Shown here: piece after piece, positions 1 to 64,000 of the stretch | Layout of the letters: the number at the start of each line of letters is the position of its first letter | Position numbering within the stretch: position 1 is the stretch's first letter | DNA from: a virus | Strand: one strand, 5' to 3' | DNA length: 64,000 nucleotides | Virus record (IMG/VR): IMGVR_UViG_3300030099_008032 | Coordinates: 1 to 64,000 of that record | Position numbers and translations under genes: made by a program | The notes under the pieces: model-generated | The model's input: only the letters and a program-made list of their open reading frames with translations | What the model was told of the DNA's origin: nothing | Databases searched by the model: none

Positions 1-2
1 CT

Positions 3-3000
3 TTGGGGTTCTTGGATAATTTTTATGGAATAAATATTCCATCTAATGGCTCCGGAGCAAATACGGAAACAAAAAGACCGACCTTGGTAGCGAATTCTTT
101 GCTTGACGCGAACGACATAGATAAAAACACAGAACGTTTTTACTCCAGTGGTTACTTCTATAATGATATGCCACTCGCCACCAGCATGAAAACAAGTGCA
201 TATGTCGAAGCTCAAAAGAATATTAACCCTCCCTTCATGGCCTTCGCACAGGATAGGCTAATTCATTCGTCGATAGAGGGTAATCCTCAAGAGATATTTA
301 AAAATTTATATGGAGACTTTGGAGAAAATGAGGAGCTTTTCGAAGAAGCAAAAGGCCTAATGGACGCCGGTATTCTTAGTAACAAATCATACATTGAGGA
401 GACCTACTTGGAAACAGTGTTTAATTTTACAGACCTTGGTTCTTTAATTTGTGGTCTTCGAAGTTCTTATAACATTGCAGAAACTTTTGATAGGTCAATA
501 TATAGCTTCGAGGCCTCCGAAGAGCTTAAAAGGACGTTTGAAGGTTCTCTAAAAAATGTTTTAACATCTCTTGGGTATGAGTATGAACAGAGTAATACAA
601 GCCACTTTGAAATAGATAATTTCAAGGACGAGAAACTAACACAATACGGTAGAACCTTTTTCAAAATAAAGTCAGAAGATGAGAATGAAATAGGTGACAT
701 CCGCATCGCGCGCCCCATGGGCATAGACCCTAATTCAAACATTAATCTAACACAAAGGGTTATTGTCAAGACCCCGTGGTCCACCTGCGAAAGTCCAGAA
801 AATTTTGTGTCCCGCGACGGGGACCTTGTCCAGACCGACCACAATGACAACGAACACAGATATACAATAGATTCAGTGCCGGAATATTGGAATGATTTCA
901 AAACAGGTGTTTGGTCGCAGACTGACATAAATCAAGATAATCGCACAGTGACATTCGGCCGCCGAAAAGATGCAGTAGGCATCGGCCGAGTCGAAGGAAA
1001 ATTTGCCCTATTGGAAAACCCGGGCGGTACCCGCCCGGAGCTTTCGAAAAGAGAGGCTTTTGTTACAAGTAGAAACGTGTTTGAAGTATCTAAAAATCTT
1101 TTTGAAAAGCCAACACTTTCTTTTGACAGAGATAGTGGAAAACACTCTCTCGAACTGAGCAGCAAGTCGAACAGACTAGCACCAAATTTATATAAAATAC
1201 CATTCAGGGTCCTTTTAACTCAGATTTTTAGAGAAGATGAGACTACGCCCTCAGAAGTTTATTGTAAAGTAGTGCCACCGTTGTATTTTGAGCCTGACCG
1301 CACAAATCAAGAATTGAGTAACATTCACAGCAAAGCTAGAAATAGCAATATAGGACAATTAAATAGAGCAGTGAAGAAGATAGCAGAGGAATATGTCCGC
1401 CTTGCAAGAAGTGTGTCGTCATCTTTAATAGAAGAGGGAATACAAGAAATACCAGAAGAACAGCTCGCAGCGCTTGAAGAAGCACTCAGACGTGACCCTC
1501 ACGGCGACCCTGAAGGTCTACACTTTCAAAATAATATAGTCCTACCAGTTGACACAATAAGAAGCAGCCCCGGACTCTCCCATTTTCCAGATTTTACTAC
1601 TGATTTTGGCAACGGCTCAGATGCTCGCGGTGATAGCTACAGGAGCCAAACAGACCAAAATCTTTTGACAAATAATGTTGATGATATTTTAAAACAAAAC
1701 AAGTCTCATTTAGACCCTGGAAACTCTCGATTTGGCGGAAATAATGGCTCAAAACCACAATTTTGTTCAATCGAAAGAATATACTCAGAAGTGTTTAAAA
1801 TAGAGACAGATTCAGAAAGTTTTAATTCAAGAATCGAGCTTGATGCTCTTTTCGCCAACCGCGGGGCCCTTGTCAAGCGGGAGAGCAGTGAAATAAAATC
1901 TTCTATAATGTCCGCGGCCGATGACAAACATAATGACAAGAGAAGTTATCTTGAATCTAAAAATTATTTCTATACCAACACAAGGTGGGACTCAACCGGT
2001 CCAAGAATAGAGCTTACATCAGACACCGCTTTTCATCGAATGATTTTTAGCATGCACAATGTTTTAAACGAGTACATGAATTTTCGAGCTGCCGGTAAGT
2101 CTAGCTTTTGGGGTCTTCTTACTGAATATAGAGAAAAATTTTATACAGCTATTCCCCGGGCCTTCGACCGCGAAGCAGGACCCGGCGGCGACGACGACCG
2201 CCTTAAAACAACCGGGACGCTACGACAACACAGAGACGCCATGGCCACCAGCGCGAGAAGAAACACTCCACATGCATTATTGTTTTCTAGGATTAGCACA
2301 AAATACTTGGAAGAATACTCTAAAAAATTTGTTTTGAATGAGATAGGGGACCTTAATAAACCTCACATTTTTGATGAAGATATTATAGACTTTCAAGGAA
2401 AAATACATGAGGCTTTCAGAAAGGACTCTGGAGGCGCCTGGGAACCGCCAGAACATATGTTTTTTCATAAGCTGAAATCTGTATCTTCTGTTCTTGCAGG
2501 TCCTGACCCGGCCGATGAAGAATATAAACATGGAGCACTAAATGCAAATTTGTTGTCTTTTGGGGACAACACGCTTAAAAATATCCCAGCCGGCGCTTTC
2601 GAAGGGATGAAAGTAAGAAGAGTCTTGGGAGGGCTAACCTCTCGCAAAAAAGTGGAGCTCCCCGTATTGCCTGGTATTTCTGGGGTGTCAATCGATGTAG
2701 ATATACCAAGTGGGAACACTCCGGAGGTGTTTTCCGTAAACGAACCCGGGGTAGTTATGCAGATTCCAAATATGCAAGATATTATAGAATTAAGGTCACA
2801 ATTTTACAGGCCTTATAAAATTGAAGACAACTTAAGGGACAATATATTGACAAACCAGTTTTGCTCTTTCAAAAATCTTCTCCCAAAGAACACAAGACAG
2901 GCAAGTAATGGGTACTATTTTGACGGCACTGGATACAATTTTGTAAACTACAATCAAATATCAGACTGTCACATTGATAGAAGGTATTCTTCTATGTACC

Positions 3001-6464: not shown

Positions 6465-6476
6465 AATCTTTAGGAC

Positions 6477-6490
6477 ACTATTTACTAAAG
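6477..6490 (+). promoter_or_regulatory. Candidate late promoter (copy 1 of motif)
   Basis: The 14-mer ACTATTTACTAAAG lies in the gap between the 2153-residue gene and the gp25 homologue, 24 bases before its ATG at 6514. An identical 14-mer lies before the tail sheath gene at 61738. Five further variants occupy other cluster boundaries. The repeated position suggests a phage late promoter; the assignment is inference. Confidence 0.5.
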
Positions 6491-46560: not shown

Positions 46561-46602
46561 ATGACGCGGGTAGCCCCCGCTAAATTGGAAAATTTATTAT
46601 GA
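46561..46602 (+). CDS. Tiny open frame 2, coupled to prohead protease (13 aa)
   Basis: ATG at 46561 is preceded by AGGGG six bases upstream and begins right after the stop of the 21-residue frame. The 13-residue frame (MTRVAPAKLENLL) ends in a TGA that overlaps the protease ATG as ATGA. The protease has no good ribosome site of its own, so this leader may deliver ribosomes to it. A GC-rich hairpin (GCGGG/CCCGC, about 46566-46580) lies inside the frame and could modulate this. Confidence 0.4.
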   Translation: MTRVAPAKLENLL

Positions 46603-50857: not shown

Positions 50858-52693
50858 ATGTCTGTTTTACAGAGACTTACAGAAGGTGTTGTTCAGCGTA
50901 ACGTTCAGAAGGAAGGTGAAGCTCTACTTAACAAGTGGGAGCAGACCGGTCTTCTTGAAGGTCTTAACGAGGGACAGCAGAAGCAGGGAATGGCCGTCCT
51001 GCTTGAAAACCAGGCTAAGGAGCTTCTCCGTGAGGCTTCATCTATGGCAGCTGGCGATGTCGAAGGCTTCGCAGCAGTTGCTTTCCCAATCGTTCGTCGT
51101 GTATTCGGTGGATTGATTGCAAACGATTTAATCTCGGTTCAGCCGATGAGCTTGCCATCTGGCCTCATCTTCTTCCTTGATTTTACGCATGAATCAGCTC
51201 GTGGCGGAGCCGCGGCTGGCGAGTCGGTATACGGCGGAAACGTTGTTGCACGCGGCTTGACTGGCGGTGTGGACCTTTCTGGTCCTGCAGGACGCCTAGG
51301 GGCAGACGGCCCAGGTGGACATTACGATATGGGCCATCGCGCCGCTCAGGCAACGGCATCGGTTTTTCTCGCAATAGACTCATTCGCCCCGGCCGACGCA
51401 ACGACTGCCTTGGGCTTGGTCACTGACGTGTCAGCTTCTCTTGTTTCTGGATTAACAGAAGTTCAAAAGAAAGCTATTAGATACGATGCTGATATTCTAG
51501 CCGATGGCGGTGTTGTTACAATTTTGGCACACACCGGGACTGTTGCTACTTTAAATGCGAAAATTGGTTCACCAATTGATGAAGAAGCTCTCGCTGCTTT
51601 CGGAACTGATTACTCGCCAGCTGCCGACCGCGCCTCTACTATCGTCCGTCGTCTCACTCGTGTTGAGGGAGATAAGGTAATTGTAGTTCTTCACGATAAA
51701 GATGGCACTGCAGGCCTTGCCAACCAAGGCTTCACATCAGGTTCTATCGGCGGCGGCGGCGCGGGTATTGATGAGGCCATGGCATTTAAGTTTCCAATCA
51801 AGGACGACTTGCAGCCAGGTAATGGTCTTGGGTCTGTTATTGGTCAGGATGTTTGGGGCCTTGAAGAGCCACAGCCTGGTACCGGAAATGCTGGTAACAG
51901 CGTAGGCAAGAACACGATTCCAGAAATCGACATCAAGGTTGACAGCATCGCTGTTACCGCTCAGACAAAGAAGTTGAAGGCAAAGTGGTCCCCAGAATTG
52001 GGTCAGGACCTCAATGCTTATCACAACTTGGACGCTGAGGTTGAGTTGACTGGTATTCTTTCTGAGCAAATTGCTTTGGAAATTGACCGTGAGCTTCTTG
52101 GTGAGCTTGTTCAGGGTGCAACCGCCGGTACTCGTTACTGGAGCCGTGCACCAGGTCTTTTTGTTGACAGCAATGGTGCCGAACTCGGCGCCCAATCTGC
52201 AGCACCTGACTTCACTGGTACGGTTAGTGAGTGGTATGAGACACTCATTGAAACCATCAATGACGTTAGCGCTCAGATTCACAGAAAGACACTTCGCGGT
52301 GGTGCAAACTTTGTTGTTTGTTCACCAGAAGTTGCTAACATCCTTGAGTTCACCAGTGGTTTCCGCGCAAGCGTAACTGCTGACCAGGACCGTGGCACCA
52401 TCGGTGCTGTTAAGGCTGGTAGCTTGAGCAAGAAGTTCGACGTTTACGTTGACCCATACTTCTTGCGAAACGTAATCCTCGTTGGCCGTAAGGGTAGCTC
52501 GTTCCTCGAAAGTGGCTTCGTGTATGCTCCTTATGTACCATTGCAGGTAACACCAACCATCTTTGGTACGGAAGACTTCGTGCCACGTAAGGGTGTCATG
52601 ACCCGTTACGCTAAGAAGATGGTGCGACCTGATATGTATGGCCTTGTTGTTGTACGTGGTCTCCTTGGTGAAGAAGGCAAGACTGCCGTTTAA
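50858..52693 (+). CDS. 23: Major capsid protein, gp23-like (HK97 fold)
   Basis: A 611-residue protein with clear T4-like gp23 signatures: 'LLENQAKELLREAS', then 'AFPIVRRVFGGLIANDLISVQPMSLPSGLIFFLD' (about 85-118) and, in the C-terminal half, 'GANFVVCSPEVANILEF', 'KKFDVYVDPYF', 'ILVGRKG' and 'GFVYAPYVPL'. It forms the capsid shell and is expected to be trimmed by gp21 at the N-terminus. The ribosome site is an excellent ttggaggt. Codon use shifts to Arg CGT, AAG and C-ending codons compared with neighbours, consistent with very high expression. Length exceeds T4 gp23 (521), suggesting insertions in the surface-exposed region about 120-230. An intrinsic terminator follows. Confidence 0.95.
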   Translation: MSVLQRLTEGVVQRNVQKEGEALLNKWEQTGLLEGLNEGQQKQGMAVLLENQAKELLREASSMAAGDVEGFAAVAFPIVRRVFGGLIANDLISVQPMSLPSGLIFFLDFTHESARGGAAAGESVYGGNVVARGLTGGVDLSGPAGRLGADGPGGHYDMGHRAAQATASVFLAIDSFAPADATTALGLVTDVSASLVSGLTEVQKKAIRYDADILADGGVVTILAHTGTVATLNAKIGSPIDEEALAAFGTDYSPAADRASTIVRRLTRVEGDKVIVVLHDKDGTAGLANQGFTSGSIGGGGAGIDEAMAFKFPIKDDLQPGNGLGSVIGQDVWGLEEPQPGTGNAGNSVGKNTIPEIDIKVDSIAVTAQTKKLKAKWSPELGQDLNAYHNLDAEVELTGILSEQIALEIDRELLGELVQGATAGTRYWSRAPGLFVDSNGAELGAQSAAPDFTGTVSEWYETLIETINDVSAQIHRKTLRGGANFVVCSPEVANILEFTSGFRASVTADQDRGTIGAVKAGSLSKKFDVYVDPYFLRNVILVGRKGSSFLESGFVYAPYVPLQVTPTIFGTEDFVPRKGVMTRYAKKMVRPDMYGLVVVRGLLGEEGKTAV

Positions 52694-52725
52694 TATTTAA
52701 TTCTTAAGCAATTAAATGAACTTAA

Positions 52726-52764
52726 CCCCCGGACATTGATTTGCCCGGGGGTTTTGTTTTTTTT
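52726..52764 (+). terminator. Intrinsic terminator after major capsid gene
   Basis: CCCCCGG (52726-52732) pairs with CCGGGGG (52745-52751) around a 12-base loop, followed by TTTTGTTTTTTTT. The strong stem and long T-run make this a confident rho-independent terminator. Confidence 0.9.
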
Positions 52765-52766
52765 GG

Positions 52767-52781
52767 CACTAATTATTAGTG
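52767..52781. promoter_or_regulatory. Perfect 15-base palindrome after the capsid terminator
   Basis: CACTAAT-T-ATTAGTG is a perfect inverted repeat three bases after the terminator T-run and 65 bases before the next start. The gap has no copy of the ACTATTTA motif. It could be an operator, an RNA stability hairpin or chance. Confidence 0.3.
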
Positions 52782-52846
52782 ATGTAATGAACTACCCAGT
52801 TTCATGACATGATTATAAATGGTAAAACCAATGGAGGGTTATAAAT

Positions 52847-53281
52847 ATGGGTACTAAAAGAGTAGGTCTCGCGAGAGTCGAGGCACTAATAGAGAATTTG
52901 AAGAGGGACTTAAACCTCACAGGGTCGTCCCTTAGTGGGTTGACCTCGCTTGCTGCAGCTGTACAAACCGTCGCCGCAGCCGGGGCCAATCAGGGCAACG
53001 CAGCTGCTATCGCTGCAACCGCCCCAATAGTTTTGGTCACCGGAGCTGATGATACCAAAGGCGCCCGTCTGCCGGCTTTGGCTGACGTTGCTACAGGTGC
53101 AATTTTTATTATTGGAAACGGCGTGAAAAACAAGGCCTTAAAGCTTTATCCTGCAACTGACGATGAATTCGCTGGCCATGGCGATAACGCCGGCCTCGTG
53201 GGCGGCAACGGCGCAGGGTTTATTGTTGCAAAAATCGACGCGGCCAAGTGGTTAGTTATTGAGTCATCTGTCGTCGCCTAA
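52847..53281 (+). CDS. Small post-capsid protein, candidate head decoration/fibre (144 aa)
   Basis: A 144-residue Ala/Gly-rich protein with ribosome site ggaggg. The N-terminus is a helix ('GLARVEALIENLKRDLNL'). The rest is beta-rich: 'VLVTGADDTKGARLPALADVATGAIFIIGNGVKNKALKLYPATDDEF', then 'AGFIVAKIDAAKWLVIES'. Such helix plus small beta-domain proteins encoded next to phage capsid genes are usually capsid-surface decorations or head fibres. It is flanked by two terminators and so forms its own unit. Decoration is inferred, not shown. Confidence 0.6.
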   Translation: MGTKRVGLARVEALIENLKRDLNLTGSSLSGLTSLAAAVQTVAAAGANQGNAAAIAATAPIVLVTGADDTKGARLPALADVATGAIFIIGNGVKNKALKLYPATDDEFAGHGDNAGLVGGNGAGFIVAKIDAAKWLVIESSVVA

Positions 53282-53298
53282 GGTTTAACAAGCCTTCC

Positions 53299-53333
53299 AA
53301 AACCCCCTTCCACTCTTGGTCGGGGGTTTTTTT
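53299..53333 (+). terminator. Intrinsic terminator after post-capsid gene
   Basis: AAAACCCCC (53299-53307) pairs with GGGGGTTTT (53322-53330) around a 14-base loop and continues into a T-run. Confidence 0.85.
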
Positions 53334-53341
53334 ATTTAAAA

Positions 53342-53355
53342 CCTATTTATTTATG
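53342..53355 (+). promoter_or_regulatory. Candidate late promoter (copy 5 of motif)
   Basis: CCTATTTATTTATG lies nine bases after the T-run of a terminator and 26 bases before the ATG at 53382. A terminator immediately followed by this motif is strong positional support for its being a promoter. Confidence 0.5.
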
Positions 53356-53381
53356 CTACCATTGAAAACAAAGGAGATATC

Positions 53382-53741
53382 ATGGGTAAGAAATCAAGAA
53401 AACTAAGAAGTCCAAAGTATAGAGTGAAAGCTGCAGCACTTAGAGGCACTGTCGCAAAACTAAGTGGACGCGGGGTGATTGAAATAGACCTAACGACCGG
53501 AGAAGAAATAACCGAAGAAGAAACAGTTGTAGTTGTTACTAACAAAGGACCAGAAACAAAAACTACAAAAAAAGAAACAGTCCCAGCTGTAGAGCCACAG
53601 CTTCAAACAATTCAGATTGAAGAACCAAAAGTCAATGCGTTAAAGCAGGTTAAGGCACCAGCAAGAAAAACCACCACTAAAACAAAGAAGACAGCCACGC
53701 GTCGTAAGCGAACAACTAAAAAAACGACTTCCGCCGATTAG
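53382..53741 (+). CDS. Small basic protein with Lys/Thr-rich tail (119 aa)
   Basis: A 119-residue protein with ribosome site aaggaga. Residues 1-50 form a small beta region ('KLRSPKYRVKAAALRGTVAKLSGRGVIEIDLTTGEEI'). Residues 85-119 are almost entirely Lys, Arg and Thr ('KTTTKTKKTATRRKRTTKKTT'), resembling a histone-like DNA-binding tail. It could bind packaged DNA or act inside the head, but I recognise no family. It follows its own terminator/late-promoter junction and precedes the neck genes. Confidence 0.5.
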   Translation: MGKKSRKLRSPKYRVKAAALRGTVAKLSGRGVIEIDLTTGEEITEEETVVVVTNKGPETKTTKKETVPAVEPQLQTIQIEEPKVNALKQVKAPARKTTTKTKKTATRRKRTTKKTTSAD

Positions 53742-53755
53742 TTCCCTCAAATACT

Positions 53756-53772
53756 AGTTATAATGAATAACT
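53756..53772 (+). promoter_or_regulatory. Inverted repeat containing a TATAAT sequence before the neck gene
   Basis: AGTTAT-AATGA-ATAACT is a six-base-pair inverted repeat in the 52-base gap before the ATG at 53794. It contains TATAAT (53759-53764) but no recognisable -35 at 16-18 bases. It may be a weak promoter, an operator or chance. Confidence 0.25.
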
Positions 53773-53793
53773 GTATATAGCGAGGGACACTAA

Positions 53794-55068
53794 ATGTCTT
53801 TACCTACATTGACTCCAGCAAGCGCTTTATCTGCGGTTGTTTTACCATCAACAGGTGACAACACAAAAGTTAATGCTGCGGTACCTTACAAAATATATTC
53901 GGATACATCTGGCCCCTTATACTCATCGGAGTTTGTAACTGGTGCCGTCGACCAAGTTTCGCACGTTTATAAAAAGCTCGGTGGCGATGTCTTGGACATC
54001 GAACTAACAGAAGGCAATGTTTATGCTGCTTACGAGGAAGCTGTATTAGAATATTGTTATCTGATAAATATACATCAAGCAACAAACATCCTGTCAAATA
54101 CCTTAGGAAACACAACTGGAAGTTTCGACTCAAAGGGCAACATAATGTCAGGGCATTTATCATCTTCTTTGTCGGGTTCTCACGTCGCTTTAAAGTATCC
54201 AAAATTTGACTACGCCATAGGAAGAAAAATATCAGAGGGAATCAGTGAAGATGTCGGCTTGAAAAATTCTGTTCAGTTTTCCGCAAGTTTCGACGTCCAA
54301 ACTGGACAGCAGGACTACAACTTACAGGAAATAATATCAGGCTCTTCGTTAAGTGAGGACTCAGACTTTTTCAATAAGATAAAAAACAAAAAGATTTTAG
54401 TCAAGAAAGTGTATTACAAGACGCCACATGCAATGTGGAGGTTTTTTGGATACTATGGCGGACTGAACGTTGTGGGAAACCTTCACAACTATGGTCAGTT
54501 CTCTGATGATTCAACTTTTCAATTAGTACCTGCATGGCATAACAAGGCCCAAGCAATGGCGTTCGAGGATGCGATATACACTAGAATGTCTCACTTTTCT
54601 TACGAACTAAGAGACAATAAACTTAGAATATATCCGATTCCTTACACACACGGCCCTAGAAAGATGTTTGTAGATTTTTCAATCCCTGGTGATGCTTGGG
54701 ATAGCGATGACCCAAAAGTGGATGGCGTCAATAATATGAACACGCTTCCAATAGGAAACATTCCTTTCGTGAACATTAACGCAATTGGCAAGCAATGGAT
54801 TCGAAGGTTTGCGCTTGCTTTATGCAAAGAGATACTAGGCCAGGTACGCTCAAAGTTTGGAACAGTGCCAATCCCTGGGGAAAGTGTAACACTAAACGGC
54901 TCAGCTTTGATAACAGAAGGAAAAGATGAGCAAGACAAGCTTAGAACGGAATTAAAAGAAACTTTAGCGGAACTAACTTATGTGAAACTATCAGAGCAGG
55001 ATTCATCAAAAATCGAAAATTCAGAAAAGGTGTTGACAAAGATTCCAAACTATATTTTTGTGGGGTGA
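53794..55068 (+). CDS. 13: Neck/head-completion protein, gp13-like
   Basis: A 424-residue protein with ribosome site gcgaggg. The N-terminal region 'VDQVSHVYKKLGGDVLDIELTEGNVYAAYEEAVLEYCYLI' (near residues 50-90) resembles the start of T4-like gp13 neck proteins, where a similar 'LG.P..nIEL...qiYd...dALE' pattern occurs. Later segments include 'DNKLRIYPIPY' and 'IRRFALALCKEILGQVRSKFGTVPIPG', also typical. gp13 caps the filled head and, with gp14, forms the collar on which the tail docks. It is followed by gp14- and gp15-like genes in T4 order, which supports the call. It is longer than T4 gp13 (309). Confidence 0.7.
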   Translation: MSLPTLTPASALSAVVLPSTGDNTKVNAAVPYKIYSDTSGPLYSSEFVTGAVDQVSHVYKKLGGDVLDIELTEGNVYAAYEEAVLEYCYLINIHQATNILSNTLGNTTGSFDSKGNIMSGHLSSSLSGSHVALKYPKFDYAIGRKISEGISEDVGLKNSVQFSASFDVQTGQQDYNLQEIISGSSLSEDSDFFNKIKNKKILVKKVYYKTPHAMWRFFGYYGGLNVVGNLHNYGQFSDDSTFQLVPAWHNKAQAMAFEDAIYTRMSHFSYELRDNKLRIYPIPYTHGPRKMFVDFSIPGDAWDSDDPKVDGVNNMNTLPIGNIPFVNINAIGKQWIRRFALALCKEILGQVRSKFGTVPIPGESVTLNGSALITEGKDEQDKLRTELKETLAELTYVKLSEQDSSKIENSEKVLTKIPNYIFVG

Positions 55069-55073
55069 TATAA

Positions 55074-55565
55074 ATGTCAGAAGATAACAAGTGGTCACAA
55101 CCGGATTCACCTCCCCCTCCTCTTTTTACAGGAAAGAGGGAGAAAGACTTTGTAAAGCAGATTAATGACGAGCTTATAGAAAGAGTTATTGGCCAAACAA
55201 TCGTATATTACCCTATAAGCTTAGAGCACACAAGTTTTCACGATTTATATGGAGAGGCGATAGAAAAGAGCTTTTTAAGTCCAATAAGGGTGCACGCAAT
55301 GGTAAAGTGGGAATCCCAACCAACCACAACAACACCTCTGGGGGTTGATAGGATAGAGAAGATATCGGTTGGATTTCACAAGAGAAGATTATCAGAAGAC
55401 CAAGACCTGTTTGTTAGAGAGGGAGATTTTGTTCAGTATGGTGAAAATATGTATGAAATTTTAACACTACAAGAGCCAAAGTGGCTTTTTGGCCAGGTTG
55501 AGTCAAGCTTTGAGATAGCGGCTTCTTGTGTTAGAGCTAGAGAGGGACTTTTTAATGTCAGATAA
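55074..55565 (+). CDS. 14: Neck protein, gp14-like
   Basis: A 163-residue protein between the gp13- and gp15-like genes. The segment 'INDELIERVIGQTIVYYPISLEHTSFHDLYGEAIEKSF' (about 25-65) matches the pattern of T4-like gp14, and the rest is a compact beta domain with 'VREGDFVQYGENMYEILTLQEPKWLFGQ', typical of head-tail joining proteins. It is shorter than T4 gp14 (256). It should form the neck ring below gp13. Its 3' end overlaps the next gene by 11 bases. Confidence 0.7.
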   Translation: MSEDNKWSQPDSPPPPLFTGKREKDFVKQINDELIERVIGQTIVYYPISLEHTSFHDLYGEAIEKSFLSPIRVHAMVKWESQPTTTTPLGVDRIEKISVGFHKRRLSEDQDLFVREGDFVQYGENMYEILTLQEPKWLFGQVESSFEIAASCVRAREGLFNVR

Positions 55566-56787
55566 CGATGGTGAGTACAAGATTCATTTTGAGATTTCCA
55601 CTGTGGAAACAATCGACCGTTCTGTCTATAACTATATAAAGTCTTTATCGCTTTCGACAACAACAAACCAGGGATTTAAGCCGGTTCCTATAATATGGGG
55701 AACAGCCGAACGCTCTTACCAGACTAAAAACAGCAAAGAAGTTAGAGACAGGCAGGGAATGCTCATATTACCCTTGATATCTATAAGAAGGACAGGATTC
55801 AAGAAAGAGCTCCGGAGCCCTGGTATATTTCAAGGCAACGTTCCCGAAGCTTCAGATTCTCAAGGCGGTTCTTTGCATGTTCGCAGAACTCTTTTCCACC
55901 AAAAAACATTAAAATTTGCAAACGCTGACGCAAAGAAGAGCACAGGCCAAAAGAATTTCCCAACGACGCGGCCAAGCCCAAAGGTTGTATATCGAACGAT
56001 AACGGTGCCCATGCCAGTTAATGTTGAGGTTATGTATGAGATAACACTTAGAACTGAATATCAGCAACAAATGAATGAGCTAATGGTACCGTTTGTCACT
56101 AGCCCCGGGACAATAAACTATGTGCCTCTAACAGAGGGTGACCACCGGTACGAAGGCTTCATACAGGCAGATTATTCATCAAATAGCAATCTTGATAATT
56201 TTTCAGAAGAAGAAAGAAAGTTCGAAACTAAAATAAGCATAAAAGTAATTGGCTATGTGGTATCCGAAGGCCCAAACAGAGAAAAACCTTATTATGCAGT
56301 AAGAGAAAATATCGTAGAGGTCAAGCTCCCCAGAGAAAGAATCTCTTTAGCAGAGATACCAGACCACGAATACGGGAGCTATTATGGTCTTTCCGGCGTA
56401 ACAAGAGACCAGATAGAGGCTTTATTCGGAGACCCCAAATTGCTTAATAATGTCCCTGCTGCATCTTTCTTTTCTACGGATGGCGCAGGTGGCTCGGGGG
56501 TAAATTTATCTTCTAATGTTGTTACCACAGATAACTTCTCTACAGTTTTGGCCGATAACATGGTTATCCGAGAACTTTTGAAAAATGAAGGAGATGCAGA
56601 AGGTACGAGGTTCACAACCAGCGCAAATATTAAACCTAATACTGAACAAGTCATGCTCAACGGCTTGCCCGTGCCATTCGGAGCAGTATTCCCAGGCCAA
56701 TATACAGTAGAAAACTCAAATACTATAGTTTTTAACGATACTGTTTTAATTTCAGAGCATGTTATGATAACATATATTAAAGCCTAA
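55555..56787 (+). CDS. 15: Tail terminator/sheath-stabilising protein, gp15-like
   Basis: A 410-residue protein. The ATG at 55555, eight bases after gagaggga, is preferred over an upstream in-frame GTG at 55528. Residues about 40-210 resemble T4 gp15: 'VPIIWGTAERSY', 'LILPLISIRRTGF', 'PSPKVVYRTITVPMPVNVEVMYEITLRTEYQQQMNELMVPFV', the last mirroring gp15's 'NPSP...YELSIFTRYEDDM'. gp15 caps the tail tube and sheath and connects to the neck. The C-terminal 60 residues are an added small beta domain ('QVMLNGLPVPFGAVFPGQYTVENSNTIVFND.VLISEHVMITYI'). A similar domain ends the fibre protein at 61641. Gene order gp13-gp14-gp15 supports the call. Confidence 0.75.
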   Translation: MSDNDGEYKIHFEISTVETIDRSVYNYIKSLSLSTTTNQGFKPVPIIWGTAERSYQTKNSKEVRDRQGMLILPLISIRRTGFKKELRSPGIFQGNVPEASDSQGGSLHVRRTLFHQKTLKFANADAKKSTGQKNFPTTRPSPKVVYRTITVPMPVNVEVMYEITLRTEYQQQMNELMVPFVTSPGTINYVPLTEGDHRYEGFIQADYSSNSNLDNFSEEERKFETKISIKVIGYVVSEGPNREKPYYAVRENIVEVKLPRERISLAEIPDHEYGSYYGLSGVTRDQIEALFGDPKLLNNVPAASFFSTDGAGGSGVNLSSNVVTTDNFSTVLADNMVIRELLKNEGDAEGTRFTTSANIKPNTEQVMLNGLPVPFGAVFPGQYTVENSNTIVFNDTVLISEHVMITYIKA

Positions 56788-56804
56788 ACAGAAAAGGAGA
56801 AAAA

Positions 56805-57170
56805 ATGGCAAAACCTGAAAAAATTTTAGACGAAACTACGGAGTTACCTAGCGAAGCTCCACAAGAACAGAATGAAGAACCAAAAACAATTGACGTTGTT
56901 GAAGTAGAGTGGGAAAACCTCCAGCATATTTTTGAATTTAGACAAAAGTTGGTAAATATGGAAAACTATTTTGCGAATATGTGTCTACAGTTCGAAAAGA
57001 ACAAGACGAATATGATGACTCAGATTACATATGGTGAAAATGACCTATATTCCATGGCCGTTGAGCTTCAGAAGACCATGAACGTCAGTTCGGAAATATC
57101 TTATGAATTAAAATTACCCACCGAACCCGGAGAAAAGGGTTATTTCCTCAGAAAAGACAACGAAGCTTAG
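56805..57170 (+). CDS. Small acidic helical protein, paralogue A (121 aa)
   Basis: A 121-residue protein with ribosome site aaaagga. An acidic Pro/Glu-rich N-terminus (1-40) is followed by a long helix, then the end 'ISYELKLPTEPGEKGYFLRKDNEA'. The same layout and a related ending ('YSVELPSSPEDKVAFKKD') occur in the 136-residue protein at 57471. No known family is recognised. It lies between the tail terminator and the fibre gene. Such helical proteins may be tail chaperones or assembly factors; this is speculation from position. Confidence 0.5.
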   Translation: MAKPEKILDETTELPSEAPQEQNEEPKTIDVVEVEWENLQHIFEFRQKLVNMENYFANMCLQFEKNKTNMMTQITYGENDLYSMAVELQKTMNVSSEISYELKLPTEPGEKGYFLRKDNEA

Positions 57171-57188
57171 GACCTACCCCAATAACGC

Positions 57189-57202
57189 ACTATTTACTAG
57201 TA
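57189..57202 (+). promoter_or_regulatory. Candidate late promoter (copy 6 of motif)
   Basis: ACTATTTACTAGTA lies in a 50-base gap, 18 bases before the GTG at 57221 and 27 before the ATG at 57230. It is close to the ACTATTTACTAAAG form found before gp25 and the sheath gene. Confidence 0.45.
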
Positions 57203-57220
57203 AAAGCAAACTAGGAGATA

Positions 57221-57460
57221 GTGAAAAAAATGAGCGAACAGCCTCAGCATTTTGTAACCAGCGATATCGGAATCGCTGCATATCTGCAATTGCAGGGAAT
57301 AAAGCTTCTTTCCTGCCGCAGATTAGAAAATGGAAAATTTTATTTTCAATTTGACGACACAAAGCAAGATTGTAGAATTAAGTCCTTAGAGTTTCTAGAA
57401 TCTGATTTTTGCAAGTTTGATAACAATGTTAGAAACCTTAAAAAAGTTTTATTTTCATAG
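57221..57460 (+). CDS. Small DUF5659-like protein (79 aa)
   Basis: A 79-residue protein starting at GTG 57221, or ATG 57230 (76 residues). AGGAG at 57213-57217 is three bases from the GTG and twelve from the ATG, so the start is undecided. The sequence 'FVTSDIGIAAYLQLQGIKLLSCRRLENGKFYFQFDDT' fits the DUF5659 pattern, a short beta-alpha domain common in phages and of unknown function. It sits between two paralogous acidic helical proteins. Confidence 0.6.
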   Translation: MKKMSEQPQHFVTSDIGIAAYLQLQGIKLLSCRRLENGKFYFQFDDTKQDCRIKSLEFLESDFCKFDNNVRNLKKVLFS

Positions 57461-57470
57461 GAGTAGAATT

Positions 57471-57881
57471 ATGAGTATTTTAGACAAATTAAAAGACCTC
57501 GTTGCGTCGATGGAATCCATGGAGGATGAAGATGCACCAAAAGCTGAACCTGAACTTGAACTTGAGCCCGAGCCCGAGCCCGAACCAGAAAAAGAAGAGT
57601 CTATTGAGGAACCAGTAGACTACTTAGAATGTACAGAAGAGGAATCAGGAAAAGTTTTCGACTCAATATTAGAGGTTCGAAAATTAAAAAGCGCCCTAGT
57701 TGAGCTTTTGATTGATTTTGAGGAAAAGAAGCACAAGATTTTAAGCTTGATAAAAGATAAGAAGAAGGAGACTTTTTCCGAACTAAACGAGCTAAAAGAA
57801 AAGTATTCAATCCCCACAGAGGGATATTCAGTTGAGTTACCGTCCAGCCCAGAAGATAAAGTTGCTTTCAAGAAAGATTAA
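57471..57881 (+). CDS. Small acidic helical protein, paralogue B (136 aa)
   Basis: The ATG at 57471, after aggag, is preferred over an in-frame TTG 54 bases upstream. The 136-residue product has an acidic N-terminus with an 'ELELEPEPEPEPEKEE' tract, a helical middle ('VRKLKSALVELLIDFEEKKHKILSLIKDKKKETFSELNELKEKY') and an ending like that of the 121-residue protein at 56805. The acidic tract is encoded by a short tandem DNA repeat. Function unknown; probably the same role as its paralogue. Confidence 0.5.
   Translation: MSILDKLKDLVASMESMEDEDAPKAEPELELEPEPEPEPEKEESIEEPVDYLECTEEESGKVFDSILEVRKLKSALVELLIDFEEKKHKILSLIKDKKKETFSELNELKEKYSIPTEGYSVELPSSPEDKVAFKKD
57564..57581 (+). repeat. Tandem hexanucleotide GAGCCC x3
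   Basis: Three exact GAGCCC units, extended by degenerate GAACCT/GAACTT units, encode the Glu-Pro tract of the 136-residue protein. Six-base units change length without shifting frame. Confidence 0.8.
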
Positions 57882-57966
57882 TTTTGTTTTATCCGATATT
57901 CATTTTAATTTTATAATATAATATTAATATTCAACCTGTAAACTTTTAAAAACAGGAGGATTTTAA
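57882..57966. other. AT-rich gap before the fibre gene
   Basis: An 85-base, very AT-rich gap containing TATAAT (57912-57917) inside a TATAATATAATATTAATATT run. The -35 position reads TTATCC, so a sigma70 promoter is only weakly supported. No ACTATTTA motif, terminator or ORF is seen. The fibre ribosome site (aggagga) lies at its end. Confidence 0.3.
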
Positions 57967-60900
57967 ATGGCAAAAGCAACAGGCAGTATAGTTATAAACT
58001 CCAATCCTGCTAACAATACCTCAAGTATTGCAATTGATGACGGCCAGGGCAACGCGTTTAGTACCATTACTTTTATTACAAATGGTGCATCAGCGGGCCA
58101 CCCTGGAGATACTCCTAACGCAGCACCTCTGGTGTATAAGTTTGGAACAAGCACCTCAAATTCAAGGCCTTTGATGGTAGTGAATTTTGGTAATTCAAAT
58201 ACCACACATACATATAGTACATTTGATGACGATTGGGGCCTTGATGGCACTCGCCCGGCAAAAATGATAATATCAGATACGGTGGGTAATACTATAAGTA
58301 TCCAATTTTCTACTGCAACATCCGGGCAATCTGGTACCTCAATCTTTTCAGGCACCAATTCAAATGCTCGTAAAATCTCTACTGGGGTGTATGAGGTCGG
58401 CGCCGAGAATTGTGGAGGTTCCGCCCGTATAGGTGCAGTTATGTTTGGTGTTTTTAAGTGTGTTAAAGACGCGATTGATAATGATAGTTTTGATGTTTCG
58501 GTGGATATAATACACTACTCCAACGGCGGCTCAGGGTCGTCTCTCTCGGATGGCAACATAAGTTATCCATATTTGAAATTGATTTCTCCAAATAGTTCAG
58601 ATTTGGGTCCCGAACATGCGGGTATTTCTGTTGGCCTTGAGAGGGCTAGTGGCACTTGGTCAGCGTCTTCTGGTACTGATTTTATGTGCATGGGAACTAC
58701 TCATCAGACAACTTCGAGGCTCGTGCGCATCGATGGCCCTATCGAGGCTGCATACGCATCTCGAGCCGGCTCACATGATTCCCTTAGTTCATCCAACCTG
58801 ACAGCAACGGAGCTTGCAACCGCTCTAAGGCAGCGCATTAATTCGATGCCAATCGCCATAACAGCTGCAGGTTCCGGAACGACAGTTAGTTTAACGAATG
58901 ACGCCCACGGTACAGCGGGCAATACAACCATATCAACAAATGACTCCACTAATTTTTCTGTAACTAGTTTTACAGGCGGCTCCGCAGAAGGCGGAGGCGG
59001 CGGCGGTGGAGGAGGAGGTTCTAGCGTGGCTAATCGACTAACAATTTCAGCAGAGCAGGTAGCAAAAGGTGCAGGTCTAAAGGCAGATTCTTCAACCAAA
59101 CCGGCGCTCAAGCTTGATTATAACTCGTTGTCAGCTGCTTCTATTGGGCAGACTGACGTTCTTACTTTTGCGGCCGATAGTTCTAATTCGACCGTAACCA
59201 AAATTACATTTAGTGATTTTGAAGATACAATTTTTGGCGTCATTTCAGGTGACGCAACAATCGCTGCCGGTGGCGCCTTAACCATCGCTGCAGATGCAGT
59301 TGAAGGTTCAATGCTTAACGATAATGTTATCTCTGGCCAGACAGAGTTAGCACAAGGTAGTTTGGCAGCCGCCGACGAACTCATGATTAGTGACGGTGGC
59401 ACGCTCAAGAAGTTTGGTGTCGATAGTCTTGCAAAAGACATGTTGGCTCTTACTACTGAAGCTGCTATTGCTAATGGTGACTACATCATGTTCCTTGATG
59501 GTGGTGCATCCGGTGAGACCAAGAAGGAATCACTTGCAGACCTAGCAACTCTTTTCGCAGGTTCTGGTCTTTCTGCTACCAACTCTGTACTAGCAGTTGA
59601 CTTAAATGAGGTTTCCGCTGCCGACGTTGCGGTCGGGGCTGATAGTATCCTTTTTATTGATGCTAACGACAGCAATGCAACTAAGAAAGAAAGTATTGCG
59701 GACTTGATGACAGCTGCAGCCGGCGACGGCCTCGCGGCATCAAGTGGCGTCTTGTCTGTTGGGGTTGATGACAGCTCCATCGAGACAAATTCGGACGCTC
59801 TTCGCATTAAGGCCTCTGGTGTTACTAACGCAATGCTTGCTGGTTCAATTGTTGCTTCAAAGATGAACAATGCTATTTTTGAAGACCTTGAAACCCTCGG
59901 TGCAGCTTCAGCTGACGGTGAGTTTATCGTTGCAACAGGTGCTGGTGCCTTCGCTTACGAAAGTGGTAACACTGCCCGTACAAGTTTGGGTGTTGGCACT
60001 GGAGACAGTCCTCAGTTCACTGGCCTTACCTTGACTGGTGACCTTACAGTTGGAGGAACAACAACGACGGTTAACTCAACAGTTGTCTCTATTGCTGATT
60101 TGGCACTAGTTGTTGCTTCTGGCTCAACAAATTCTGCTATAGCCGCTGCAGACGGCGCAGGTATTTCTGTTGGCCTCGACGCAGGAAAGAGCCCATTGGC
60201 ATCCTTCCTTTACGATGGAGATTCCTCAAACCCGGCATGGGACTTGTCACACGACCTCAACCTAGCCTCTGGCATGGACTTTAGAATTAATGACACCTCT
60301 GTCTTGTCGGCGGACGGTGCAGTAAAGGTCCAGTCCGGAGTCGCAGGCGCCGGCCTAGCCCACTCAGCAGGCGTTCTTTCTGTTGACATGTCCGAGTTCA
60401 GCGCAGTTACTCCTGCTGCATCTGATTCATTCTTGACGCTTGATTCTGATGGTTCAACCGAACAGAGAACAACGACCGATGCTCTAGCAACCTTGTTTGC
60501 TGGTAACGGCCTTGCAGCTGCCTCGGCAGTGTTGTCAGTCGACTTGAATGAACTTACCGCCGCGGCAGTTGATGTGGCTAACGACTCGATAGCTATTGTA
60601 GATGCTAATGATAGCAATGCTTCCAAAAAGGAGAGTATTGCAGACTTGGCAACCGCTATGGCTGGCTCCGGCCTCTCTGCAACATCCGGTGTCTTCGCGG
60701 TTGATTTGAATGAGGTTTCAGCGGCTGCTGTTGATGTTGCTGCTGACAGCATCCTCATCATTGATGCCAATGACAGCAATGCAACCAAGAAGGAGAGTGT
60801 CGCTGACCTGGCTACTGCCATGGCCGGTGCAGGTATCGGCGTATCCAGTGGTGTATTATCACTTGATATCGACGAACTTTCTGCTCTTGGCGGAACAGGT

Positions 60901-61641
60901 GTTGCGCAGGGTGACCACTTCGTCTTCTCAGATGACGGAACAGAGAAGAAGATTACATTCTCTAACATGGAGGATGCAATCTTTGGTAACGTCAGTGGTG
61001 ATGCTACTATCGCTGCCGGCGGTGCTTTAACCATTGCTGCTGATGCAGTTGAGGGCTCAATGCTTAACGACAATGTTATTTCTGGTCAAACAGAATTAGC
61101 ACATGCTGACATCGCTGATGCAGATGAATTGATGATTAGTGACGGTGGTACACTTAAGAAGGTCGGCGTCGACAGTCTTCAGAATCACTACTACGGCAAT
61201 ATTTCTGGCGATGCAACTGTAGCTGACGGTGGTGCTTTAACTATTGCATCCACTGCAATTGAAGGCTCAATGCTTAATAACAATGTTATCTCAGGTCAGA
61301 CTGATATTGGTGCAGCCGTGGCTGATACTGATGAAATCATGATTTCGGATGGCGGTACACTAAGAAGAGCAGACATCAGCAGATTTAAGACTTATATCGC
61401 TGCAAACTTTGTAGAAGACGTCTTTAACTCTGGTGCTGTTGCTGTCTCCGGTGCTGTCGGTGACTTGACAGCAACACCTGCAGGTGGAGACTCAGCCCCG
61501 GACGCCATTTCTGTCTACATCAATGGTCTTTTGCAGACCCAAGATGTAGACTACTCTATTTCTGGTGCAACATTGTCTCTCAAGGGAGCAACCAGTTTGG
61601 GTGCCCAAGACGAGATGGTCGTTAAGTACATAAAGCTTTAA
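57967..61641 (+). CDS. Repeat-rich tail fibre protein (1224 aa)
   Basis: A 1224-residue protein with strong ribosome site caggagga. The first 320 residues contain beta modules related to those in the giant protein ('ELATALRQRINSMPIAITAAGSGTTVSLTNDAHGTAGNTTIST'). A poly-Gly linker (near residues 342-352) follows. From about 380 to 1140, repeated segments occur: 'GDATIAAGGALTIAADAVEGSMLN' (three copies), 'DELMISDGGTLKK' (several) and 'DANDSN.[TS]KKES[IV]ADL' (three). Such repeats are typical of long trimeric fibres. The last 50 residues form a small beta domain ending 'DEMVVKYIKL', like the end of the gp15-like protein. It probably binds the host receptor. Codons in the repeats have diverged synonymously. 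Confidence 0.75.
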   Translation: MAKATGSIVINSNPANNTSSIAIDDGQGNAFSTITFITNGASAGHPGDTPNAAPLVYKFGTSTSNSRPLMVVNFGNSNTTHTYSTFDDDWGLDGTRPAKMIISDTVGNTISIQFSTATSGQSGTSIFSGTNSNARKISTGVYEVGAENCGGSARIGAVMFGVFKCVKDAIDNDSFDVSVDIIHYSNGGSGSSLSDGNISYPYLKLISPNSSDLGPEHAGISVGLERASGTWSASSGTDFMCMGTTHQTTSRLVRIDGPIEAAYASRAGSHDSLSSSNLTATELATALRQRINSMPIAITAAGSGTTVSLTNDAHGTAGNTTISTNDSTNFSVTSFTGGSAEGGGGGGGGGGSSVANRLTISAEQVAKGAGLKADSSTKPALKLDYNSLSAASIGQTDVLTFAADSSNSTVTKITFSDFEDTIFGVISGDATIAAGGALTIAADAVEGSMLNDNVISGQTELAQGSLAAADELMISDGGTLKKFGVDSLAKDMLALTTEAAIANGDYIMFLDGGASGETKKESLADLATLFAGSGLSATNSVLAVDLNEVSAADVAVGADSILFIDANDSNATKKESIADLMTAAAGDGLAASSGVLSVGVDDSSIETNSDALRIKASGVTNAMLAGSIVASKMNNAIFEDLETLGAASADGEFIVATGAGAFAYESGNTARTSLGVGTGDSPQFTGLTLTGDLTVGGTTTTVNSTVVSIADLALVVASGSTNSAIAAADGAGISVGLDAGKSPLASFLYDGDSSNPAWDLSHDLNLASGMDFRINDTSVLSADGAVKVQSGVAGAGLAHSAGVLSVDMSEFSAVTPAASDSFLTLDSDGSTEQRTTTDALATLFAGNGLAAASAVLSVDLNELTAAAVDVANDSIAIVDANDSNASKKESIADLATAMAGSGLSATSGVFAVDLNEVSAAAVDVAADSILIIDANDSNATKKESVADLATAMAGAGIGVSSGVLSLDIDELSALGGTGVAQGDHFVFSDDGTEKKITFSNMEDAIFGNVSGDATIAAGGALTIAADAVEGSMLNDNVISGQTELAHADIADADELMISDGGTLKKVGVDSLQNHYYGNISGDATVADGGALTIASTAIEGSMLNNNVISGQTDIGAAVADTDEIMISDGGTLRRADISRFKTYIAANFVEDVFNSGAVAVSGAVGDLTATPAGGDSAPDAISVYINGLLQTQDVDYSISGATLSLKGATSLGAQDEMVVKYIKL
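59234..61311 (+). repeat. Dispersed coding repeats in the fibre gene
   Basis: Three copies of the 'GDAT.A.GGALTIA..A.EGSMLN.NVISGQT' unit start near 59234, 60984 and 61196. Three 'DANDSN' units start near 59656, 60598 and 60760. Protein similarity is high while third positions differ, so the repeats are old or under protein-level selection. Confidence 0.7.
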
Positions 61642-61675
61642 AGTTTTATTACTTTCCCGCCTTTGTGTCCCTCAA

Positions 61676-61710
61676 AACACCCCGGTTTCTGCCGGGGTGT
61701 TCTTTTTCTT
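61676..61710 (+). terminator. Intrinsic terminator after tail fibre gene
   Basis: AACACCCCGG (61676-61685) pairs with CCGGGGTGTT (61692-61701) around a six-base loop, followed by a T-rich run (ctttttctttctttt). A strong ten-base-pair stem. Confidence 0.9.
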
Positions 61711-61737
61711 TCTTTTATTCTTTTGAAAGATAGTAAA

Positions 61738-61751
61738 ACTATTTACTAAAG
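61738..61751 (+). promoter_or_regulatory. Candidate late promoter (copy 7 of motif)
   Basis: ACTATTTACTAAAG, identical to copy 1, lies about 30 bases after a strong terminator and 42 bases before the sheath ATG. Because the terminator should stop upstream transcription, the sheath gene needs its own promoter, and this is the obvious candidate. Confidence 0.6.
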
Positions 61752-61792
61752 TGATATCCCTATTTTAGTACCTTTTGAGGAGAATACTCGAT

Positions 61793-64000
61793 ATGTCTGT
61801 TAAAAAATTTAAATTTGTCTCCCCTGGAGTTTTCTTGAAGGAAATTGACAATAGTCAGTTGCCTCAAATCCCGGCCGGAATCGGCCCTGTCGTCATAGGT
61901 CGATTTAGAAAAGGGCCTGCGATGAAACCTGTCCAGGTAGGAAGCCTTGTTGATTTTGAGAATACTTTTGGTCGCACAATACCCGGGTCAGAAGGTGATG
62001 ACCCATGGAGAGAAGGTAACGGATTGCAAGCAACTTCTCCTGCACCATATGCAGCTTACTCTTATTTTAACGCACCGATGGACTCACAACCACCACTGAC
62101 AGTAGTTCGACTTTTGGGTGTTAGCGACCGCAATGCCCTTGATAGCGGCCTGGCCGGCTGGGACCTAGGAACTAATGGCAATACTTACGGGATATTTGTG
62201 ATTCCTTCCACCTCTAGCGCCACCACAGCAAAAGCTTTCCTCGCAGGTACGATTTATTCTCCAGATGAAAAATTCTCTGTTGGTGTGTACGGCAAAGACG
62301 GTAACAACCAAGTGGTAACAGCCGAAGCCTGCTTGGTCAGCGCATCGACCAATGCCAGCATCCCAGTAAAAATAGGTTCAGGACTCATGGGCGAAGTGCA
62401 AAACCCGCATTCTTTTGGGTTGAATATTTCTAACTCTTTGGGTCAACGAACCCAGTTAGTATCATTTATTGAACAAGATAAGAACCTGTATATTAGAAAC
62501 AAGCTGAATACGAATCCGGTACAAACAAACACTAGAATTAAAAGCCCACCATCAGGCTCTTTGGCCGAATCTTATTGGCTAGGAGAAACTTTTGATAATT
62601 CTTACGTCCAATCATTACGACAAGAGCAGGCCAGAGCAGGCAAGCAGACTACCACCACCCAGTTTGTTTTTGTGGCAAAACTCTCCGAGAATTTTGAAGA
62701 TTTTAAAAGCACTAAACATCAGTTGTCCCCAGCGAAGTCTGGATGGGTAATAGGCCAGCACACTGGAGACAGTAGTACTTATGACCCCTTAAAGGCCCAA
62801 AAGTTATTTAGAATTATTAGTTTACAAGACGGAGAGCAAGGAAACTCTCAATACGTCCAAATTGAAAATATTAAGATTAAGTTCCAGGGCGACCCTGACC
62901 CGTATGGGACTTTCTCGCTAGCGGTATATTATTTACCTGTAGGCGAAGGGCTCCCTCGTCTTCAAGAAAGGTGGGATAACTTAAATTTAAATCCAAAATC
63001 AAGCAGATATATTGCAAGAGTTATAGGAGACAGATATTTTGAGTGGGATTCTGCCGCAAAGGTCAACCGCTCTTACAATAGCTACAATAATACAAACCCT
63101 TATATCAGAGTGGACATGTCGACAGAAGTAGCGGAAGGTGACTTAGAAAACATTCGTGCAGTTCCGTTTGGTTTCTTAGGACCAGTGGTCCCTAAAGACC
63201 ACGCTGCAGCCTCCGGGTCGAATGGCGAGTATACAATGTCTACCTGGATTAACGGCAAAGTTGATTTATCTAATTACAGACCAGGCGCCGGTGAGCTGGC
63301 ACCAACGACTTTCACAGTCGAATGGCCAACCTTACCGCAGGTTATAACTGGTTCGCAAGTGCCTGGCGGCGCAGATACTTTTAATCCTTTCGGAGGCACA
63401 CCATATCCTATTGGCCGCGGCGACGTTGAGCTGAACGAAAATCCAGTCTTGAAAGGCTCCTGTGACTATTATAGAAGAATGCCAGAAAGTGATTTCCTGA
63501 CTCCTCAGGGTAATGGCATAGCAGATGCAAATACAAAACATTCATATGTTTTTAGTTTGGACCAAATAGTCGTTACGGGCTCATCAGCCGTACCAGCTGT
63601 AAACCTGGTCGAATGGCCCGACCGAACTGCAGTATACCACAGAGAAGATTCTCATCTTTCACCAGCTGCAACTGCTACTTTAACAATCAACACAAATCGT
63701 GCGTCAATGTCTAGTGACAGTCGTTTTGACATAACTGATGCTGCTGGAACTACAAAGTCGTTTATTTTTAAGACAGCTATAAACACTGTCGACGGCAGTA
63801 CGAACCCTGGTGACCGATTTATAGTTGGTGTTGCTGCAGAGCAAGCCGGTCTTAATAGTGCCGACGCAGCCGAGCGCCAGGCCGCGGCCAACGCCGTCGC
63901 TGCAAAAATAGCAACTGTAATTGGCACAAATCCAGTTCAAGCAGCTATCGGTATCACTGCAACGGCTGTAAATAACGTTGTTACTATTACGCAAAAAACA
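61793..64000 (+). CDS. 18: Tail sheath protein, gp18-like, 3' truncated
   Basis: The ATG at 61793 follows gaggaga. The frame stays open for 736 codons to the window end without a stop, so the gene is incomplete. The N-terminus 'FKFVSPGVFLKEIDNSQLPQIPAGIGPVVIGRFRKGPAMKPVQVGSLVDFENTFG' is the classic T4-like sheath start. 'NPKSSRYIARVIGDRYFEWD' and 'RAVPFGFLGP' are further sheath markers. Sheath subunits form the contractile outer tail tube. At 736 residues with the conserved C-terminal domain not yet reached, it already exceeds T4 gp18 (659). The extra length includes a beta module near residues 624-736 ('TDAAGTTKSFIFKTAINTVDGS', 'NVVTITQKT') related to modules in the giant protein and the fibre. 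Confidence 0.92.
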   Translation, partial: MSVKKFKFVSPGVFLKEIDNSQLPQIPAGIGPVVIGRFRKGPAMKPVQVGSLVDFENTFGRTIPGSEGDDPWREGNGLQATSPAPYAAYSYFNAPMDSQPPLTVVRLLGVSDRNALDSGLAGWDLGTNGNTYGIFVIPSTSSATTAKAFLAGTIYSPDEKFSVGVYGKDGNNQVVTAEACLVSASTNASIPVKIGSGLMGEVQNPHSFGLNISNSLGQRTQLVSFIEQDKNLYIRNKLNTNPVQTNTRIKSPPSGSLAESYWLGETFDNSYVQSLRQEQARAGKQTTTTQFVFVAKLSENFEDFKSTKHQLSPAKSGWVIGQHTGDSSTYDPLKAQKLFRIISLQDGEQGNSQYVQIENIKIKFQGDPDPYGTFSLAVYYLPVGEGLPRLQERWDNLNLNPKSSRYIARVIGDRYFEWDSAAKVNRSYNSYNNTNPYIRVDMSTEVAEGDLENIRAVPFGFLGPVVPKDHAAASGSNGEYTMSTWINGKVDLSNYRPGAGELAPTTFTVEWPTLPQVITGSQVPGGADTFNPFGGTPYPIGRGDVELNENPVLKGSCDYYRRMPESDFLTPQGNGIADANTKHSYVFSLDQIVVTGSSAVPAVNLVEWPDRTAVYHREDSHLSPAATATLTINTNRASMSSDSRFDITDAAGTTKSFIFKTAINTVDGSTNPGDRFIVGVAAEQAGLNSADAAERQAAANAVAAKIATVIGTNPVQAAIGITATAVNNVVTITQKT

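Follow-up and report, generated by a model that had tools for sequence, protein, structure and literature searches.

The window analysed here, positions 1-64000 of IMG/VR record IMGVR_UViG_3300030099_008032, covers the structural-gene region of an uncultured T4-like tailed phage, and the tetranucleotide GATC has been purged from the whole recovered genome of this phage. The full record (G000, 68,582 bases) and a second contig of the same phage (G022) together provide 183,062 unique bases, in which GATC does not occur once while 461.3 copies are expected. The complete disappearance of a tetramer is commonly attributed to host defence; in this case the phage itself encodes a plausible enzyme for cutting that word. 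Outside the window, G022 encodes a 217-amino-acid protein which is a predicted MutH/Sau3AI-type PD-(D/E)XK endonuclease. We give about an even chance to the explanation that the absence of GATC is self-immunity to this unpaired phage nuclease, possibly in addition to host restriction.

Absence of GATC from the recovered genome

The original prediction had reported, from reading the letters, that GATC is missing from all 64 kb although some 200 copies would be expected by chance. Tetramer counting agrees: the window (40.7% GC) contains 0 GATC, against 153.7 expected from a second-order Markov model and 229 from base composition. No other tetramer is equally depleted. The next-lowest of the 256, CACG, has an observed/expected ratio (O/E) of 0.68, and the 15 other palindromic tetramers range from 0.93 to 1.22; the tetramer table rules out a compositional cause. 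GATC is likewise absent from record positions 60001-68582, from contig G021 (52,515 bases) and from G022 (130,653 bases). G021 is a second copy of window positions 1-52507, identical over 1-39993 and with one base different in the next 12.5 kb. G022 overlaps the window at 52410-64000 and on to record position 68582 with 99.994% identity, and contig G034 derives from the same phage (99.96% identity to G022 over 30.5 kb). If the rate of the near-complete kin G003 or G004 applied, about 660 GATC would be predicted for the 183,062 bases. The absence is exact, and the original prediction understated it. Measured against the Markov expectation and against the other tetramers, both in the window and in the 183,062 bases, it is restriction-site avoidance, a phenomenon of known kind. 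That it is an artefact of odd base composition or of a library cut at GATC has a probability close to nil, since the other tetramers are near expectation, long open reading frames (ORFs) are intact, overlapping contigs agree at 99.96-100% and kin in the same collection have GATC.

Avoidance extends to codon choice, as had been noticed earlier for Asp codons, and both other reading frames are empty as well. Contexts were counted in mechanically called ORFs of at least 100 amino acids, with G000 and G022 sharing 16 kb. When the next codon starts with C, Asp is written GAC in 197/197 cases in G000 and in 249/249 in G022, whereas GAT prevails before all other codons (721 GAT vs 500 GAC in G000). 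Ile following a codon that ends in G is never ATC (0/231 in G000, 0/362 in G022), and NGA followed by TCN occurs in neither contig. The kin G003 uses these contexts freely, with GAT in 278 of 534 Asp codons before C, ATC in 128 of 615 Ile codons after G and 129 NGA-TCN pairs. Since the loss is total, codon choice is affected in all three frames and every other palindrome is spared, the pattern is most naturally read as selection against an activity that cuts GATC. In this respect the original prediction stands; the host, which it had put forward as the source of the enzyme, is a possible source.

GATC in related phages

Kin were collected as the best 80 loci per scan. The near-complete kin G003, G004 and G005 show GATC O/E of 0.89-0.93, and the 39 relatives of at least 10 kb found by the terminase large subunit (TerL) have a pooled O/E of 0.81. 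Among the 159 other capsid and terminase loci listed, two are without GATC, both of them short (L095, 1,960 bases; L111, 6,184 bases), and the full record of L095 (6,881 bases) holds 9 GATC. Scans with two proteins of G003, a 1144-amino-acid DNA polymerase III alpha and a 620-amino-acid ribonucleotide-reductase-like protein, listed 160 loci, 11 of them without GATC: two belong to the window phage and nine to a second group of low GC content. A scan starting from this second group added 67 new loci, 30 without GATC; whole records qualify this count, as G095 (below) has GATC outside its GATC-free locus.

A tree of the reductase, a single gene that can move between phages, was built from 151 of 152 rows (L526 dropped out), with GATC regarded as normal at O/E of at least 0.3. 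In a supported set of 12 rows, nine are normal and two low, and only the window phage has zero GATC. Its nearest kin on the tree keep GATC (O/E 0.18-0.92), the closest rows having 10/18, 34/59, 57/85, 3/17 and 98/106 observed/expected copies; hence the complete loss is placed on the branch leading to the window phage alone. In conserved genes, none of the GATC positions of kin is kept in the window phage (0/131 for G003, 0/137 for G004), as compared with 17-38% for six other tetramers. For five contigs of kin that stand closer on the tree the figure is 0/123, as compared with 10-44% for nine other palindromes.

A predicted MutH/Sau3AI-like nuclease

Twenty ORFs of G022, most of them without counterparts in the kin compared, were scanned against Pfam. 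The 217-amino-acid protein encoded at G022:70855-71508 (minus strand of G022) gave a sub-threshold match to MvaI/BcnI, and it matches phrog_15364, a family of unknown function, with E 1.9e-89. Its ORF is intact and flanked by two small genes whose homologues adjoin in G003, where the site is empty; phrog_15364 has no match in the near-complete kin G003, G004, G005 and G007.

An AlphaFold2 model based on a 36-row alignment (predicted local distance difference test score, pLDDT, 85.8; predicted template modelling score 0.82) has the MutH/Sau3AI fold; a single-sequence model (pLDDT 38.5) was discarded. All seven Foldseek matches at E<=0.001 are MutH (five chains) or Sau3AI (two chains). VIA-align Z scores are 13.1-14.7 for MutH, 9.9 and 12.6 for Sau3AI and 6.0-6.4 for MvaI/BcnI. 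In profile comparisons, hhalign aligns the protein to Escherichia coli MutH over 163 columns (E 3.8e-7), and the NCBIfam MutH model NF003458 matches across residues 22-215 (E 1.9e-7) with 30.4 bits, far under its cut-off of 243. None of the curated cut-offs (PF02976, NF003458, TIGR02248) is reached by the protein. PF02976 matches neither G022 nor four other records that carry the gene and is therefore blind to phrog_15364 nucleases. The Pfam families of Dam (PF02086), MutH (PF02976) and DpnII (PF04556) have no match in the window phage.

Residues were paired with MutH by hhalign and three MAFFT alignments. The phage residues aligned to MutH K48, G49, E56, E77, K79, K116 and R184 are identical in all 85 homologues (51 of them distinct), and the one aligned to K186 in 81 of 85. 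The alignment contains the catalytic Glu and Lys, which we take to be E77 and K79 in MutH numbering, and the recognition residues K48 and R184. A DEK motif of MutH is described in the available part of PMC3848065, and K48 and R184 are needed in a MutH fusion according to the text available from PMC10940147. The phage protein has in common with E. coli MutH and Sau3AI its predicted fold and the majority of the catalytic and recognition residues. The phage protein differs from them in lying far under the NCBIfam MutH cut-offs, in having no Pfam MutH match and in carrying Phe in place of Tyr212, and its 217 residues compare with a Sau3AI chain of 466. We infer that it cuts or nicks unmethylated GATC.

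Homologues in cyanophages and the missing methylase

Nuclease homologues are carried by 25 cyanophage records. Those of S-RIM8, S-IOM18, S-RS29, S-8S29 and S-CAM7 belong to phrog_15364 and are 54-67% identical to the protein of the window phage. In three of these five regions (S-IOM18, S-RIM8, S-RS29) the nuclease gene directly follows a Dam gene; in S-8S29 nuclease and Dam share one reading frame, and in S-CAM7 Dam lies elsewhere in the genome. Dam is present in the whole records of these five cyanophages (5/5), and both of the Dam proteins scanned exceed the TIGR00571 cut-off. The cyanophages thus hold a Dam and MutH-like module with a homologous nuclease and keep a reduced number of GATC, whereas in the window phage GATC is absent and PF02086 has no match in contigs G000, G021 and G022. 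Motif scans, which are weaker than family models, gave no convincing methylase in the window phage, with Pfam covering part of the ORFs. The cognate methyltransferase that belongs to a type II restriction-modification system was not found in the three contigs.

The best 80 IMG/VR loci with the nuclease gene were collected, and 43 of their records were searched for Dam. It was detected in 17, including all four records longer than 150 kb, one of which is probably an S-RIM8 record and so not independent of the named set. No Dam was detected in G022 or in 25 of the 42 other carrier records, all of these being fragments of at most 106.8 kb.

Among named cyanophages, compared over 40-kb stretches from different genome parts, GATC O/E is 0.70-0.89 in four without the nuclease and 0.11-0.67 in the five carriers. 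Within these few phages, low GATC goes with presence of the nuclease. CCGG and GGCC do not separate the groups in this way: three of the four non-carriers are without CCGG and three have GGCC at or below 0.25, much like the carriers. In the 40-kb cyanophage stretches (L399-L403, L614-L616), CCGG O/E is 0.00 in S-IOM18, S-RIM8, S-8S29, S-RS29, S-BM1, Syn19 and S-SSM7, and GGCC is absent from the S-CAM7 stretch. A larger set comprised 70 carrier and 62 reference contigs of at least 5 kb, which are not independent of each other; the nuclease was found in none of the 30 reference records searched, most of them fragments. Median GATC O/E is 0.45 in carriers and 0.80 in the reference. No local depletion around the nuclease gene was seen in 12 carrier loci (0.44, 0.42 and 0.47 with distance).

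Possible self-immunity or host restriction

An unpaired MutH/Sau3AI-like enzyme would be bearable only to a genome without GATC. According to the explanation proposed here, the phage would deploy its GATC nuclease on host or competitor DNA and, as the methylase is absent, its own genome would be safe only by having no GATC. Cutting of GATC, whether by the phage's nuclease, by a host enzyme or by both in turn, is the probable driver of the purge, and an already purged genome might retain the nuclease without its methylase. A stricter version is restriction without modification: a lone GATC endonuclease which has lost its methylase partner, and with Phe at the Tyr212 position perhaps methyl-sensing too, immunity being due solely to erasure. 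We consider this version possible and rather unlikely. If true, a virus could neutralise the danger of its own restriction weapon by erasing the sites throughout its genome, in place of methylating them, and the GATC-poor kin would represent steps in an arms race or its targets. Virus-encoded GATC nucleases have precedents in the restriction-modification systems of Marseilleviridae and chlorovirus PBCV-1, proposed in the available text of PMC7253447 to act against co-infecting DNA; there, marseillevirus shields its own genome by GATC methylation, unlike the erasure proposed for the window phage. Avoidance as antidote to a phage's own unpaired nuclease may be a new variant of restriction-site avoidance. 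The titles and abstract openings consulted on the subject describe no phage with an unpaired GATC nuclease, which is no proof of absence in print. If the protein cuts GATC, unpaired viral nucleases could be looked for through the words that viral genomes never use.

Several observations weigh against this explanation. The first concern the enzyme. Its gene was seen on one contig only (G022). The invariant phage residue D64 is one column off MutH D70 in hhalign and three MAFFT runs and coincides with it in hmmsearch; as its placement varies with the method, the third catalytic residue is not settled. At the position of MutH Tyr212 the window phage has F203, while the 84 other homologues have Tyr, and this Phe could weaken the nuclease. 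Tyr212, a property of MutH and not of the whole superfamily, is tied to methylation sensing in the accessible portion of PMC3848065. Among 53 otherwise invariant columns the window-phage protein departs at four, the most of any homologue; as F203 is one of the four, the Phe is only suggestive.

Others concern the methylase. Some kb of the genome are unrecovered, which by synteny with G003 would mainly be the remainder of one giant gene. Weak methylase candidates are two ORFs with an NPPF or NPPY string, the giant gene and G022:74569-75273 (without a Pfam match), and G022:12700-13284, an ORF with sub-threshold similarity to small-molecule-type methyltransferases. Carrier fragments in which no Dam was detected and which retain GATC exist as well, the largest being G063 (106.8 kb; 21 GATC at the locus, 58 expected). 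In the larger set of contigs, AGCT and GGCC are also lower in carriers, so that the link there is not specific to GATC.

The remaining ones concern phages in which GATC is depleted and the nuclease was not found. G007 (185 kb) has 135 GATC against 573 expected (O/E 0.24). Of the 39 TerL kin of at least 10 kb, few of them with an established nuclease status, 10 have GATC as the most depleted of the 16 palindromes. The most extreme case is G094 (IMGVR_UViG_3300032242_003291, L591-L606; 317,259 bases), with 0 GATC against 943 expected. G095 has 33 against 720, its 15-kb locus having none, and G096 has 11 against 373. G094 and G095 are distant T4-like relatives of the window phage (identities, respectively, 27% and 47% in the terminase, 46% and 51% in partial capsid, 74% and 73% in the reductase). 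Neither phrog_15364 nor PF04556 has a match in G094, G095 or G096, which gives no support to the idea that the nuclease generally causes GATC loss. PF02976 has no match in the three either, which says little, since this family also misses known carriers. G095 gave a weak MutH-like match without the motif, which was judged to be a chance hit. G094 encodes three methylase candidates (D12, N6_N4 and a type IIG-like ORF), and no GATC nuclease was detected in it. Erasure evidently occurs at jumbo-phage scale, and it needs a cause. The depleted kin and the distant G094 weigh against the nuclease as sole cause, and they favour an outside pressure at least in part.

Such a pressure is the core of classical avoidance, in which a GATC-cutting type II enzyme of one or several hosts purged the sites and the phage nuclease is a later passenger. 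We rate this account behind self-immunity, though as a serious competitor. Besides G007 and G094, it draws support from the reductase tree, where, of 151 rows, 38 lack GATC in the stretch available and 21 are low, and where supported branches require the zero label to have changed six times or more, with the reservation that the gene itself may have moved. According to the text available from PMC6286503, where the host encodes GATC restriction enzymes, GATC is below expectation in 46/46 phages. Staphylococcus phage K provides a precedent: like that of the window phage, its genome exceeds 100 kb and has GATC eliminated, which is attributed to a GATC restriction enzyme (PMC6532042, in the part available). 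There the enzyme, Sau3A, is the host's and that part mentions no phage-encoded GATC nuclease, whereas the window phage has a MutH/Sau3AI-like gene. A GATC enzyme in the host of the window phage is, however, hypothetical, and the labels of the metagenome-assembled genomes (MAGs) with six TerL relatives (WOR-3, Flavobacteriaceae, Flavobacteriales, Pelagibacteraceae and, for two, 'bacterium') are mixed and not decisive for the host. Host restriction alone would also leave a coincidence, namely that the sole long GATC-free genome among close kin also has a MutH/Sau3AI-like gene and no Dam found.

Host methyl-directed mismatch repair (Dam/MutHLS), nicking or breaking under-methylated GATC in phage DNA, is an improbable third source of the pressure. 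Shine-Dalgarno-like sites precede about half of the genes, and these sites together with a transfer-messenger RNA (tmRNA) whose predicted tag starts with AND are presumably compatible with a proteobacterial host. Many kin keep GATC, which speaks against mismatch repair, as does the usually partial GATC depletion of large enterobacterial phages. The available text of PMC5014478 reports that phiX174 has zero GATC, as in the window phage, and that phage yield is lower in dam- mutH+ cells. This precedent differs in being a 5.4-kb phage, whose avoidance is there discussed through mismatch repair, with no phage nuclease in that text.

Other features of the phage

Assignment to the T4-like phages rests on a T4-type terminase, a portal protein, a gp23-type capsid protein and, in addition, a prohead protease, all on the plus strand of the window. 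The terminase large subunit, which was used to find kin, lies at 41216-42802 (phrog_2, 5e-51), followed by the portal protein at 42806-44824 (phrog_213, 7e-79), the prohead protease at 46599-47207 (PF03420, 4e-28) and the major capsid protein of T4 gp23 type at 50858-52693 (phrog_138, 1.6e-70). By capsid, the closest named phages include Flavobacterium phages immuto, Rhodothermus phage RM378 and a Microcystis phage, all below 50% identity. A 2.8-Mb MAG chromosome with the label candidate division WOR-3 (L607, CP070664.1) contains a terminase that shares 67% identity with that of the window.

Also on the plus strand, 34180-35106 encodes a DnaG-like primase with a zinc ribbon (PF01807, 5e-6; PF08275, 9e-6) and a weak Toprim match. 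The adjacent ORF of 231 amino acids at 35124-35819 is unmatched in G003 and G004 although its neighbours match; as a candidate GATC enzyme it was rejected, having no match in Pfam or phage records and only weak PHROG and PADLOC matches. At 36063-39200 (plus strand), SbcD-like and SbcC-like parts are joined in one ORF of 1045 amino acids (phrog_100 over residues 1-339, phrog_77 over residues 301-1044); it is also single in the kin G004 and G007 and is represented by two ORFs in G003. A long ORF at 57967-61641 has internal DNA repeats that are 72-77% identical.

On G022 there are six tRNA genes and a tmRNA (L390:16487-16797; Rfam RF00023, 128 bits) with the predicted tag ANDDVENFEDFALAA. A sugar-nucleotide-type cluster at G022:11164-19063 (L389) comprises NeuB, a class III aminotransferase, a cytidylyltransferase, a formyltransferase and Polysacc_synt_2; most of these genes have no counterpart in the kin used for comparison.

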